37,995 nucleotides of DNA, taken from assembly GCA_028279865.1 (NCBI GenBank), contig JANQMV010000055.1:1-37995 (forward strand). Direction: 5' to 3'. Within the stretch, counting starts at the first letter, position 1, and every line of letters starts with the position of its first letter. Made by a program: the position numbers and the translations under genes. The notes beneath the pieces were generated by a model. The model ran no database searches, was not told where the DNA came from, and saw only the letters and a program-made list of their open reading frames with translations. The stretch comes from Candidatus Altimarinota bacterium (GTDB taxonomy: Bacteria; Patescibacteriota; Gracilibacteria; JANQMV01). Positions 13,285 to 37,995 of this stretch are shown here, in pieces.

Positions 13285-13361
13285 TGGTGTCCCAGGCGCG
13301 ATTTGAACGCACGACCTCAGCCTTCGCAGGGCTGCGCTCTATCCAGCTGAGCTACTGGGAC
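13285..13361 (-). tRNA. tRNA-Arg (anticodon GCG)
   Basis: A 77-base cloverleaf: acceptor GTCCCAG/CTGGGAC, D-arm GCTC/GAGC, anticodon stem CAGCC/GGCTG with loop CTGCGAA (anticodon GCG), T-arm GTGCG/CGCGC, discriminator A and encoded CCA. Most bacteria use an A34 (inosine) tRNA for CGU/CGC; here position 34 is G, so CGC and CGU can be read without TadA editing. These are the main Arg codons in the two leader peptides of this window. Confidence 0.93.
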
Positions 13362-32800: not shown

Positions 32801-32828
32801 TTGACAAATCAAAATTCCACGCTAAACT
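32801..32828 (+). promoter_or_regulatory. Promoter for the argG leader
   Basis: TTGACA (32801-32806), a 16-base spacer and TAAACT (32823-32828). The mRNA would begin about 15 bases before the leader ATG at 32851. Confidence 0.65.
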
Positions 32829-32850: not shown

Positions 32851-32934
32851 ATGCAAATTAATTTAACTCAAATCAGCGTAGCTAACCGTCGCACTCGCCG
32901 TAGTCATACTTCGGTCGAGTTTGTTGTGAATTAA
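32851..32934 (+). CDS. Arg-rich leader peptide of argG
   Basis: A 27-codon ORF, too short for ordinary gene calling. Its start is MQINLTQISVANRRTRRSH; four of five consecutive codons (32887-32901) are Arg (CGT CGC ACT CGC CGT). It begins about 15 bases after the predicted transcript start and ends 28 bases before a terminator hairpin. The Arg run lies in segment 1 of the attenuator, so a ribosome starved of charged tRNA-Arg would stall there. The call rests on layout, not on conservation. Confidence 0.8.
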   Translation: MQINLTQISVANRRTRRSHTSVEFVVN

Positions 32935-32989
32935 TTTAAACCCAAATATCAAACAACTTCCTACGACCGAACAAGGTCGTATTTTTTTT
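32893..32989 (+). promoter_or_regulatory. Arginine attenuator before argG
   Basis: Three exclusive pairings are visible. 1:2, ACTCGCCG (32893-32900) with CGGTCGAGT (32912-32920), one bulged base. 2:3, TTCGGTCG (32910-32917) with CGACCGAA (32964-32971), 8 bp. 3:4, TACGACC (32962-32968) with GGTCGTA (32975-32981), then eight T. Stalling at the Arg codons blocks 1:2 and frees 2 to pair with 3, so no terminator forms. Confidence 0.8.
32962..32989 (+). terminator. Intrinsic terminator of the argG attenuator
   Basis: Stem TACGACC/GGTCGTA with loop GAACAA, followed by a run of eight T. It is about 285 bases before argG. Confidence 0.85.
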
Positions 32990-33274: not shown

Positions 33275-34498
33275 ATGGAAAACAAGAAAATCGTACTCGC
33301 CTACTCAGGAGGACTGGACACATCTATCATCACAACCTGGCTCGTTCAAAACGGCTTTGAAGTGATTTGTCTACTGGTAGACCTCGGACAAAAAGTTGAA
33401 GATGTAGAAGAACTTAAACAAAAAGCCCTAAACTGTGGTGCCAGCAAATCAGTTGTCCTGGATTTAAAAGAAGAATTCGTCAAAGAATATGTCTTTGAAG
33501 TAATGAAATGGAATGCTAAATACGAAGGAGAATATTTATTGGGAACATCCGTTGCCAGACCACTTATCGCCAAAGCTCAAGTTCAAATCGCCGAGCAAGA
33601 AGGCGCTCAATGGCTTTCACACGGAGCAACCGGAAAAGGGAATGATCAAGTTAGATTTGAAATGGGATACTATGCCCTCAAACCGGATGTAAAAGTTTAT
33701 GCACCATGGAAAGATCCTAAATTTTTGGAAAAATTTCCGGGCAGAAAAGAAATGATTGATTTCGCCGAAGAAAATAATATTCCAATTAAAGCAACCAACG
33801 AACAACCTTGGTCAAGTGATGAAAATTTACTCCACATTTCTTTTGAAGCAGGAATGCTCGAAGATCCGTGGACAAAACCACTGGATGAAATGTATGAATT
33901 TTCGAAAACTCCACAAAATGCCCCGGATCAAACCACAGAACTTTTCCTCGACTTCGAAGATGGTCTACCGGTTAGCCTAAATGGAGAAAAACTTTCTCCA
34001 GCAGAAATGCTGCACAAGTTAAACGAAATCGGAGGAGAAAACGGAATCGGGCAACTCGATATGGTGGAAAACAGATTTGTGGGAATGAAATCCAGAGGAG
34101 TCTACGAAACTCCGGGAGGAACAATTTTGTGGAAAGCACACAAAGCAATGGAAAGTATCACCATGGACAGAGATTTGATGCATTTAAGAGACTCTCTCAT
34201 GCCTGAATTTGCAAAAATGGTTTATAACGGTTTTTGGTTTTGCGCTAAAATGAAAGCCATGCAAAAACTCATTGCACAGTCACAAAAGAAAGTAACCGGA
34301 ACTGTCAGATTGGATTTGTACAAAGGAAATGTCAGAATTACCGGAAGAAAATCGGATTACTCTCTCTACGATGATAAAATCGCCTCAATGGACGACGACG
34401 GAGGTGCTTACAACCAAGAAGACGCCATCGGTTTCATCAAACTAAATGCCCTGCCACAAAGAGTAGAAGCAGCGAAAAGAGGAGGATTGTATCTTTAA
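33275..34498 (+). CDS. argG: Argininosuccinate synthase
   Basis: ArgG joins citrulline and aspartate to argininosuccinate using ATP. The 407-residue protein starts MENKKIVLAYSGGLDTSII, with the N-type ATP pyrophosphatase P-loop SGGLDTS, and shows the substrate segment GATGKGNDQVRFE (about 114-126), the aspartate/citrulline residues near LLGTSVARPLIAK and the C-terminal tail that makes tetramer contacts. Normal length for the family (about 400). It heads the arg cluster and lies behind a translation-coupled attenuator. It has no internal TGA and ends TAA. A 326-base gap with two repeats follows before argF. Confidence 0.97.
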   Translation: MENKKIVLAYSGGLDTSIITTWLVQNGFEVICLLVDLGQKVEDVEELKQKALNCGASKSVVLDLKEEFVKEYVFEVMKWNAKYEGEYLLGTSVARPLIAKAQVQIAEQEGAQWLSHGATGKGNDQVRFEMGYYALKPDVKVYAPWKDPKFLEKFPGRKEMIDFAEENNIPIKATNEQPWSSDENLLHISFEAGMLEDPWTKPLDEMYEFSKTPQNAPDQTTELFLDFEDGLPVSLNGEKLSPAEMLHKLNEIGGENGIGQLDMVENRFVGMKSRGVYETPGGTILWKAHKAMESITMDRDLMHLRDSLMPEFAKMVYNGFWFCAKMKAMQKLIAQSQKKVTGTVRLDLYKGNVRITGRKSDYSLYDDKIASMDDDGGAYNQEDAIGFIKLNALPQRVEAAKRGGLYL

Positions 34499-34824: not shown

Positions 34825-35772
34825 ATGAAAAAAAACTTAACCAAAATCAGTGATTTGGATAAACAGGAAATATCCAAAATCATCAAACAAGCTTTTTTGT
34901 ACAAAAAAGAAAAAGATCAGGGCAAAGAACACGCTGATATTCTCAAGAAAAAAACGATTGCAATGATTTTTGAAAAAGCTTCGCTCAGAACAAAAGTTGC
35001 CATGGAAACAGCCGCCTATCAATTAGGCGGACATGCTGTTTATCTTACCAGTTCACAGATTCTTGCCAGTGGAAATAATCAGCAAGGCAGAGAATCAATT
35101 CCTGATATCGCACACAATTTGGAAAGATTTTGCGAATTGATTACCGCCAGAGTTTATCATCATGAAACAATTAAAATCCTCTCCGAATCAAGCAACAAAC
35201 CTGTCATCAATCTACTCTGCGATCAACATCACCCCACACAAACACTCGCTGATCTGATGGTCATTTATTGGCACAAGCAAAGTTTTGAGAACTTAAAAGT
35301 CTGCTTCATCGGTGATGCCAATAATGTTTCACAGGACTTAATGCAAGGTTGTAGTATTATGGGAATTGATTTTTCCATCGCAACGCCGGAAAGCTACCCT
35401 GTGCCTAACAATGTCATCACAGAAGCTCTCAACCACGCTTCTAAATCCGGCGCAAAAGTTGAAGTCACTACTTCTCCCGAAATAGCAATTAAAAACGCTG
35501 ACTTTGTCTACACAGATACGTTTATTTCCATGGGAGAAGAAGATCAGTATCAAGCAAAAATCAAAGAATTTGCTGACTATCAAATAAATTCAGAAATTCT
35601 CAAACATGCTAAAAATGATGTAAAATTTATGCACTGCTTACCCGCACACCGAGGAGAAGAAGTCACAGATGAAGTTATGGACAGCAAACATTCAATCATC
35701 TTCGACCAAGCAGAATGCAGACTACACATTATGAAAAGTTTGTTGCATTATTACTTTGGATGAAAACATTAA
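34825..35772 (+). CDS. argF: Ornithine carbamoyltransferase
   Basis: OTCase makes citrulline from ornithine and carbamoyl phosphate. Signatures: EKASLRTKVAMETA (carbamoyl-phosphate loop, SxRT as SLRT), HHPTQTLADLMVI, the SMG loop in TDTFISMGEEDQ, and the catalytic HCLPAHRGEEV. Under the standard code it stops at TGA (35761-35763) after 312 residues. With UGA as Gly it gains Gly-Lys-His and ends at TAA 35770-35772. It follows argG by about 326 bases and precedes argH by about 180, all on one strand; the gaps hold repeats and no leader ORF like that of argG. Confidence 0.95.
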
Positions 35773-35949: not shown

Positions 35950-37149
35950 ATGCAAAAAATCTGGCAAAAATCAGCACAAAGTAATACTTCCGACATTGCA
36001 AAAATTGTCGAAAAATTTACCGTAGGAGATGATTATATCCTTGATCAAAAAGTCCTCCCCTATGACTTAAAAGCCTCCAAAGCACATGCACAAATGCTGC
36101 ATCAAATTAAAATCATTTCCAAGGAAGAACTGGAAGCTTTGGAAAAAGGTTTGGCTGAAATTAAAACTTTATGGAAAAAAGGAGAATTCGAAATTTCCAG
36201 AACAGATGAAGATTGTCACACGGCGATTGAAAAGTATTTAACGGAAAAATTCGGAACAGTCGGAGAAAAAATCCATACAGGCAGAAGCAGAAATGATCAA
36301 ATTCTGGTGGCGATGCGTTTGTTACAAAAGCATTCTCTGCAAAGCTTTACTGAGCAGATTGAAGGTTTGCTGCAAAGCTTTACAGAACAAACTGAAAAAT
36401 TTGGCAAGATTAAAATGCCCGGTTACACACATATGCAAAGAGCCATGCCGTCTTCTGTCGGAATGTGGCTGGGTAGTTTTGAAGCCAGCTTCAAAGATAA
36501 CTTCCAACTAATGCAAAGCACTCAAGCAGTTATTGATCAAAATCCTTTGGGCAGTGCCGCAGGTTTTGGAGAAAATACTTTTGGCTTGGATCGAGAATTT
36601 ACTTCAAAGAAGCTAGGCTTTGCTAAAACACAAACTAATCCGATGTATTGTGCCTATTCCAGAGGAAAATTTGAAAAAATTATTCTGGATAATTTAGGAA
36701 ATTTCATGCTGGATTTTGGAAAATTTGCCAGCGATCTTCTACTTTTCACAACCAAAGAATTCGGATTCTTCGCTTTACCGGATGAATTTTTAACGGGTTC
36801 TTCCATCATGCCGCAAAAAAAGAATTACGACGTACTGGAATTAATGCGAGGCAAAACAAGCGTCTTCTTTGGTTATCAATCGCAAATCCAAGAAATAATT
36901 AAGAACCTTCCCTCAGGTTATAATCGAGATTTCCAACTAATCAAAGCACCATTTTTAAAAGCTCTGCAAACTTTTGGAAACTGCTTGGAAATGACGAATC
37001 TGGTTGTAAATAACTTACAGCCAAATCAAGCAAAACTTGAAGAAGCTTGCAGTCAGGAACTTTATGCCACGGATGAGGCGTACAAACTGGTTAAAAACGG
37101 AATAAGCTTCCGTGAAGCTTACAAAAAAATTGGTGCTAAATACATTTAA
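35950..37149 (+). CDS. argH: Argininosuccinate lyase, short C-terminus
   Basis: ArgH splits argininosuccinate to arginine and fumarate. Visible are the N-terminal ILDQKVLPYDLKASKAHAQML, EDCHTAIEKYLTEKFG, HTGRSRNDQI, the helix PGYTHMQRAMPSSVGMWLG and the flexible catalytic loop GSSIMPQKKN. It has 399 residues, some 50-60 fewer than E. coli ArgH (457): it stops after SFREAYKKIGAKYI, just where the last helical part of the family begins. Active-site segments are all present, so it may be active; a shortened lineage form is likelier than truncation because the stop is TAA with no repeat at the end. Confidence 0.94.
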   Translation: MQKIWQKSAQSNTSDIAKIVEKFTVGDDYILDQKVLPYDLKASKAHAQMLHQIKIISKEELEALEKGLAEIKTLWKKGEFEISRTDEDCHTAIEKYLTEKFGTVGEKIHTGRSRNDQILVAMRLLQKHSLQSFTEQIEGLLQSFTEQTEKFGKIKMPGYTHMQRAMPSSVGMWLGSFEASFKDNFQLMQSTQAVIDQNPLGSAAGFGENTFGLDREFTSKKLGFAKTQTNPMYCAYSRGKFEKIILDNLGNFMLDFGKFASDLLLFTTKEFGFFALPDEFLTGSSIMPQKKNYDVLELMRGKTSVFFGYQSQIQEIIKNLPSGYNRDFQLIKAPFLKALQTFGNCLEMTNLVVNNLQPNQAKLEEACSQELYATDEAYKLVKNGISFREAYKKIGAKYI

Positions 37150-37187
37150 ACAACTTGCTTCAGCTGTTTGTAAAACAATAAATCGAA

Positions 37188-37253
37188 ATGATTAATCTTT
37201 TATTAAATCGCCGTATCAGAACTCTTCGCTTGCGTACTGTACGTAAACGCTAA
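37188..37253 (+). CDS. Arg-rich leader peptide of the argB-like gene
   Basis: A 21-codon ORF with seven Arg codons (CGC CGT, then AGA, CGC, CGT, CGT, CGC). The peptide is MINLLLNRRIRTLRLRTVRK plus Arg. It is 39 bases after argH and ends 23 bases before a terminator hairpin. Its Arg density makes coincidence unlikely, and most of its Arg codons suit tRNA-Arg(GCG). Confidence 0.82.
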   Translation: MINLLLNRRIRTLRLRTVRKR

Positions 37254-37302
37254 TTTTTAAACTAAAAAAATTAAGCCTTACGTGATAGTGCGTAGGTTTT
37301 TT
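37227..37302 (+). promoter_or_regulatory. Arginine attenuator before the argB-like gene
   Basis: Terminator arm CCTTACG (37276-37282) pairs with CGTAGG (37291-37296). The leader end ACGTAA (37241-37246) can pair with TTACGT (37278-37283), part of that 5' arm, as an anti-terminator. GCGTAC..GTAaaCGC (about 37232-37250) forms a protector hairpin over the last Arg codons. It is weaker than the argG version. Confidence 0.7.
37276..37302 (+). terminator. Intrinsic terminator of the argB attenuator
   Basis: CCTTACG and CGTAGG form a 6-bp stem with one bulged T and an 8-base loop, followed by six T. It lies about 30 bases before the gene start. Confidence 0.78.
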
Positions 37303-37330
37303 CTTCTTGTAAATATTTAATTTGTCAAAT

Positions 37331-37995
37331 ATGGAACTAAGTGAAAAAAGGTATTTTCAAAATCTCTACAGGAAAAGTAATCTTCTAATAAAAAGCAGTG
37401 GAGAAGGTGTCTTGCCTCAAAATATAGAAAATCTAACAAAAAACATTAGGGAATTGCTTCTTCAAGGAACCAAAATAACCCTGATTCATGGTGCAGGAAA
37501 ACAAATTGATGCAGCATGGAGAAGAAGCGGACACACAGAAGAAAGACCCAAAAGAGACGGAGTTGCTCTTACTACCCCCGAGGTGCTCTATGATGCTGTT
37601 TTGCCTGCAGAGGAACAAATACAAAATGAGCTTGCGCAATACTTTGACACTATTGATCACACAACCATACCAAGAGCAAACATTAGAGGTGAAATCAAAG
37701 ATTATGAAAAAATGGGATTTACAGGTACGCCAGTTGAAGTAGAAAATCTTGATTTTGAAAAAACTTTACAAATTATTGGATTCACAGGTGTAACTGAGAG
37801 TGGACAAGAATTAAATATAAATGGGGATGAAATAGCAAAGGTGATTGTTAAGACACGTCAAAGTTTTGACAAAGTTATTTTCGCAACCGAAAGCGGAGGT
37901 GTTTTGAATACTGACAAAAAAATTGTCCACGCAATTGCACTTGAAGATATTCCAGAAATTCTGAAAGATTTTCATCCAAAAATCAAAGTTGAAGG
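37331..37995 (+). CDS. argB: Acetylglutamate kinase-like amino acid kinase (partial)
   Basis: The first 221 codons run open to the window end. The fold reads as an amino acid kinase: an N-terminal helix, ITLIHGAGKQIDAAWRRSG (substrate/phosphate loop, like the HGGG region of acetylglutamate kinase), RDGVALTTPEVLYDAV, a central GFTGVTESGQELNINGDEIAKVI resembling the LNINAD part of NAGK, and ATESGGVLNTDKKIVHAIA where NAGK has LTDVPGVL. ArgB phosphorylates N-acetylglutamate. The Arg attenuator and argGFH neighbours favour this over other amino acid kinases such as aspartokinase; it could be a fused NAGS-NAGK, which would show in the C-terminal part beyond the window. Confidence 0.72.
   Translation, partial: MELSEKRYFQNLYRKSNLLIKSSGEGVLPQNIENLTKNIRELLLQGTKITLIHGAGKQIDAAWRRSGHTEERPKRDGVALTTPEVLYDAVLPAEEQIQNELAQYFDTIDHTTIPRANIRGEIKDYEKMGFTGTPVEVENLDFEKTLQIIGFTGVTESGQELNINGDEIAKVIVKTRQSFDKVIFATESGGVLNTDKKIVHAIALEDIPEILKDFHPKIKVE

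Follow-up and report, generated by a model that had tools for sequence, protein, structure and literature searches.

The window, that is, the whole stretch of 37,995 nucleotides that was analysed, comes from a genome of 1.48 Mb in 59 contigs. It carries an argG-argF-argH cluster followed by an argB-like gene, and a separate short arginine-rich ORF with an intrinsic terminator precedes each of the two, the cluster and the argB-like gene. The class to which the genome belongs is probably Gracilibacteria-like, within Patescibacteria, judging by the genome size and by the many in-frame TGA codons of some of its members. The features, all on the forward strand, are as follows.

32801-32828, forward: promoter-like TTGACA-16-TAAACT upstream of leader 1 (consensus match only)
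32851-32934, forward: leader ORF 1, 27 codons and a stop, MQINLTQISVANRRTRRSHTSVEFVVN
32910-32917, forward: predicted antiterminator 5' strand of leader 1, TTCGGTCG, pairing with CGACCGAA at 32964-32971
32962-32989, forward: intrinsic terminator 1 with its T-run, stem at 32962-32981
33275-34498, forward: argG (argininosuccinate synthase), TIGR00032, 486.8 bits against a cut-off of 268.2
34825-35763, forward: argF (ornithine carbamoyltransferase), TIGR00658, 358 bits against a cut-off of 280.85
35950-37149, forward: argH (argininosuccinate lyase), TIGR00838, 324.8 bits against a cut-off of 279.5
37188-37253, forward: leader ORF 2, read from the sequence, 21 codons and TAA, MINLLLNRRIRTLRLRTVRKR, with seven Arg codons (CGC CGT AGA CGC CGT CGT CGC)
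37228-37246, forward: predicted antiterminator 5' strand of leader 2, within leader ORF 2, containing ACGTAA at 37241-37246 (RNA fold and duplex test)
37277-37302, forward: intrinsic terminator 2, stem CTTACGTG-ATAG-TGCGTAGG at 37277-37296, T-run to 37302
37322-37993, forward: argB-like gene (amino-acid kinase domain), in-frame ATG at 37331, truncated by the contig end

The last gene had been called argB-like in an earlier note on this DNA. Membership in the amino-acid kinases holds, as the Pfam AA_kinase score is over its cut-off (41.8 against 24.9), but the narrower identity is uncertain, the argB score of 57.5 bits being under the cut-off of 151.3. Because no argC match over the cut-off was found in this genome and the argB score is below its cut-off, the reaction of the gene product is uncertain. 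The named relatives of argG (33275-34498) are Planctomycetota and Deferribacteraceae MAGs, with 53-57% identity in four long matches, while the closest members of the class to which the source genome belongs show 73-74% identity; horizontal transfer of argG is possible. A 30-base repeat, TCCCGGAATTATGTCCGCTTTAATAAAAAA, lies in both intergenic gaps flanking argF (34639 and 35813). The window also contains, at 13285-13361, a tRNA-Arg with the anticodon GCG, which is unusual in bacteria; this tRNA would decode CGC and CGT, and these are the Arg codons that the leaders prefer.

Leader ORF 2 starts 38 nt after the end of argH and ends 23 nt ahead of the stem of terminator 2, which is directly followed on its 3' side by TTTTTTCTTC. 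The ORF and the terminator had been described in the earlier note and are both present, as is the proposed pairing of ACGTAA (37241-37246) with TTACGT (37278-37283). The predicted pairing is longer, as the whole strand 37228-37246 pairs with nearly the entire terminator at -26.2 kcal/mol against a shuffled mean of -14.3 (p=0.0005). The antiterminator is the minimum-energy fold of 37150-37330 (z=-2.60, with 2 of 200 shuffles equally good), in which leader 2 RNA forms one long hairpin between 37228-37246, inside the ORF, and the terminator sequence. Pairing with the 5' arm of the terminator alone was no better than chance (shuffle p=0.42), and the partner swap on the 5' arm only, with a rank of 0.17, failed. 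Folding of the free RNA gave -28.0 kcal/mol for the leader in the antiterminator fold and -8.9 for the terminator stretch alone. Since the free leader 2 RNA folds as the antiterminator, favouring readthrough, termination at this leader would require an active ribosome. No Shine-Dalgarno-like sequence was seen by eye ahead of leader 2, and no promoter-like site was found near it at the scan threshold. In an Rfam search of the window only tRNAs reached the gathering score, and thus no T-box or other curated leader family was detected.

Judged by its sequence, leader 1 is of the same build as leader 2, with an Arg-rich ORF and a terminator ahead of argG-argF-argH. The pairing of TTCGGTCG with CGACCGAA on the 5' arm of terminator 1 was better than in shuffles (p=0.006), and the shuffle test against the whole terminator failed (p=0.18). 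The predicted fold of leader 1 retains the terminator and has ACTCGCCG, where the Arg codons lie, paired with CGGTCGAG. The classical attenuator design includes a protecting first hairpin, and the leader 1 fold resembles it, with the Arg-codon hairpin in that place. Antiterminator and terminator are predicted to be mutually exclusive at both leaders, for leader 2 only when the whole terminator is considered and for leader 1 only with its 5' arm.

Could such arrangements be due to chance, terminator 2 being that of argH or incidental and the Arg-rich ORF noise? Arg-richness alone is not rare, as 12 of the 371 short ATG ORFs in the window reach 4 or more Arg within 10 codons, and shuffles of the region also yield terminator-like sites, with a mean of 4.7 against the 9 found. 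The combination of an Arg-rich ORF with an adjacent terminator was rarer: the scan of the window returned three cases, namely leader 1, leader 2 and one antisense within argG, and a scan of 290 kb of the same genome gave one weak match. The survey of the class bears on the same question. For the survey, a leader counted as strict if 4 or more of 10 codons were Arg and a terminator lay within 90 nt. argG is present in 64 of 288 class genomes, and 60 stretches were taken around 66 listed matches; with 30 argF-family loci, 30 carA loci, 11 of 12 argB-like loci and the window, this yielded 358 distinct genes with an upstream gap of at least 80 nt. Strict Arg leaders preceded 18 of the 66 arg-first units and 2 of the 277 other units (Fisher p=2e-12), some of the 18 looking weak (e.g. 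L060 and L102), four genomes coming from one genus and related leaders being non-independent samples. The earlier note had named equal frequency before arginine and other genes as what would refute its claim, and the counts favour the claim. This enrichment argues against chance, as do the matched antiterminators with their fixed placement described below, and we consider chance a very improbable explanation.

Among leaders ahead of the 66 arg units, Ser came next after Arg with 6, then Leu with 5 and Lys with 3, and none of the counted Arg leaders was the tail of a long ORF, so the counts were unchanged. Where the arg gene of an operon is not its first gene, strict leaders were present in 3 of 15 cases. 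They were absent at 60 of 81 arg-containing units, among the genomes without them being those with the closest argG (L043 and L044, 73-74% identity). No Arg leader was found at 30 carA loci (whose units are also counted among the 277), at 30 argS loci, at 29 argC-family loci, 14 of them over the argC cut-off, or at the five named argG loci, which are distant (Planctomycetota, Planctomycetaceae, Deferribacteraceae). The idea of an arginine regulon run by attenuation is supported by the enrichment at arg units, but its extension to carA, argS or argC found no support in the loci examined.

A relaxed criterion (RR and at least 3 Arg) gave 28 leader rows, and further RRR-bearing ORFs exist, several of them without a called terminator. 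Altogether, Arg leaders of differing sequence stand before arginine genes in more than twenty related genomes. The suggestion that two unlike leaders follow the same logic agrees with this, as unlike leaders recur across the class and another genome, G035, likewise carries two dissimilar ones, L066 before argG and L110 before argF. In one genus (g26), where four genomes carry three distinct leaders, CGCCGC and GAAGCTG are conserved in the ORF, and the terminators of the four genomes retain the GGCTTC arm while the opposite arm changes. Relatives whose genes contain TGA codons in frame (L073, L090, L094 and L097) have leaders that can likewise be read in frame. In other classes of the phylum, such leaders were found at 3 of 19 argG loci, namely L206, which has a TTG start, L215, and L222, where a gene of 192 amino acids lies between the leader and argG. 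The argG of L206 (1432-3066) has a C-terminal extension, residues 406-530, that matches positions 929-1049 of TIGR01369. By this match the extension may be the end of a carbamoyl-phosphate synthase large subunit, and a fusion is possible.

Pairing and placement were assessed over the leader set. Pairing of the antiterminator with the 5' arm of the terminator exceeded that of dinucleotide shuffles (p<0.05) for 20 of the 28 leaders and for 3 of the 19 ORF-terminator pairs that served as controls. These control pairs as a set also showed a slight excess of pairing (Fisher p=0.017). For the codon, swap and geometry tests 25 of the 28 rows were used, the start being taken as the nearest in-frame ATG that retains the Arg run; three with non-ATG starts were dropped (L062, L068 and one before argF in the window), and L206 lay outside the geometry set. 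The 25 rows comprise 24 distinct leaders (L066 and L067 are identical). When terminators were swapped among these 24, ranking by pairing with the 5' arm placed the own leader among the best 10% in 18 cases and in the upper half in all 24; with the whole terminator the numbers were 15 and 23, respectively. The first RR lies at codon 7-15 in 25 of 25 leaders, a figure that depends partly on the choice of ATG. The distance from the first RR codon to the start of the antiterminator strand falls between +12 and +30 nt in 22 of 24 leaders, with a median of 19, compared with 246 of the 552 swapped pairs. Outside the class it is +20 in L215 and +22 in L222. Toeprint positions in passages of PMC13009471 fit a stalled ribosome reaching about 13-16 nt ahead. 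By its position in the sequence, the antiterminator thus starts about where a stalled ribosome would end, and the strand would be left free.

The Arg codons of the leaders are biased towards CGT and CGC, which make up 80 of 114; in long ORFs from these loci they account for 807 of 2570 (p=1e-16). A portion of PMC1183508 discusses selective charging as a reason for codon choice, and pairing needs could also shape the codons of the leaders. A TTGACA-like box precedes 19 of the 25 leaders, compared with 76 of the 277 other genes. A leaderless-mRNA model, in which the -10 box would lie at a constant short distance ahead of the ATG, was rejected, as the spacing proved variable.

Sequence and statistics together establish the ORFs and terminators, the competing pairing and where it falls, the enrichment at arg genes and the recurrence in relatives. 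We consider it very probable that the leaders form an arginine-specific, ribosome-mediated transcription attenuator of the classical kind. RNA polymerase would make the leader RNA at the same time as the short ORF is translated by a ribosome. When Arg-tRNA is scarce, the ribosome would wait at the first Arg codons of leader 2 (codons 8, 9 and 11), leaving the downstream strand free to pair with the terminator sequence, and transcription would read through into the argB-like gene. Leader 1 would act in the same way on argG-argF-argH. We infer that the leader ORFs are translated, that ribosomes stall there and that readthrough responds to arginine.

Stalling could also arise otherwise, if the Arg-rich nascent peptide sensed a small molecule or an antibiotic in the ribosome tunnel. 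The peptide of leader 2 does contain an RLR stretch, and an Arg-Leu-Arg motif is found, according to part of PMC8632094, in antibiotic-resistance leader peptides. However, apart from the Arg runs and where these lie, the leader peptides have little in common, and it is arg genes that follow them, which makes such arrest highly unlikely. Alternatively, stalling could expose or hide the start of the downstream gene. At many loci the distance of about 20-50 nt from terminator end to gene start would suit translational control of this type, but the hairpins are followed by T-runs and terminator 1 ends 293 nt upstream of argG; we regard this explanation as improbable. Transcription attenuation by a ribosome waiting at Arg codons remains our preferred reading.

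ArgR (PF01316) was not found over the cut-off in any of 192 class genomes, the source genome among them, and two weaker matches were seen; the same profile was over the cut-off in 8 of 14 control genomes. We lean towards the view that arg genes in the class, and also in parts of the wider phylum, are controlled mainly by ribosome-mediated attenuators instead of ArgR, the leaders repeatedly arising or being rewritten with only the Arg run and the antiterminator spacing kept.

Histidine genes offered a side case. On the minus strand of L279, ahead of 1780-2652, an HHH leader, MTSFVREIASHHHASLRT, and a terminator lie directly upstream of hisG (TIGR00070), and the sequence suggests a histidine attenuator. 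This was the one clean His leader case among the 30 hisD loci fetched. In L290 a Trp-repressor-family gene (136-462; PF01371, 97.9 bits) with HHH in its tail lies directly before hisG; a second His leader there was rejected, as the HHH is the tail of that gene, which has a GTG start.

The control of biosynthesis in tiny uncultured bacteria with few recognisable regulators is poorly known, and the leaders supply a concrete switch for such bacteria that can be tested with reporters. Through them arginine would join the amino acids with synthesis genes under leader-peptide attenuation, and they show a mechanism retained through geometry and not through sequence. The CGT/CGC bias permits a test of the theory of selective tRNA charging.

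The attenuation mechanism itself is already known; what was not found described is its arginine specificity for these genes. In the open-access papers searched, no Arg-leader attenuator of argG, argF or argB was found, and the one paper among them that contains both 'Patescibacteria' and 'leader peptide' applies the latter term to bacteriocins. The fungal arginine attenuator peptide is likewise encoded by an arginine-responsive upstream ORF but is eukaryotic and acts through arrest by the peptide. Closest in design are the trp, his, leu, thr and phe leader-peptide attenuators of Proteobacteria, Actinobacteria and some Firmicutes, which share the short ORF rich in the pathway amino acid, the antiterminator competing with an intrinsic terminator and the regulatory codons preceding the antiterminator strand. 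They differ in that the amino acid here is arginine and the host class is without ArgR over the cut-off. In an excerpt of PMC1262725 arginine appears among the T-boxes, and attenuators are listed for His, Thr and Phe; according to passages of PMC2965389 no such attenuator had previously been shown outside Proteobacteria and Actinobacteria, Bacilli being added by that paper. In a Pseudomonas strain, attenuation is predicted for carA, a gene common to arginine and pyrimidine synthesis that also follows a leader peptide (PMC4997734, in part); Arg codons are not described in those passages, and here none of 30 carA loci had an Arg leader. The rbfL leader of Staphylococcus aureus also senses arginine limitation through Arg codons of its ORF, but, as sections of PMC13009471 describe, a ribosome binding site is blocked and expression falls when arginine is scarce. 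In the orf34/SpeF leader of Salmonella, as portrayed in parts of PMC6386406, consecutive Arg codons likewise sense arginine through ribosome pausing, but termination is Rho-dependent and involves RNase G, and the target is ornithine decarboxylase, not arginine synthesis.
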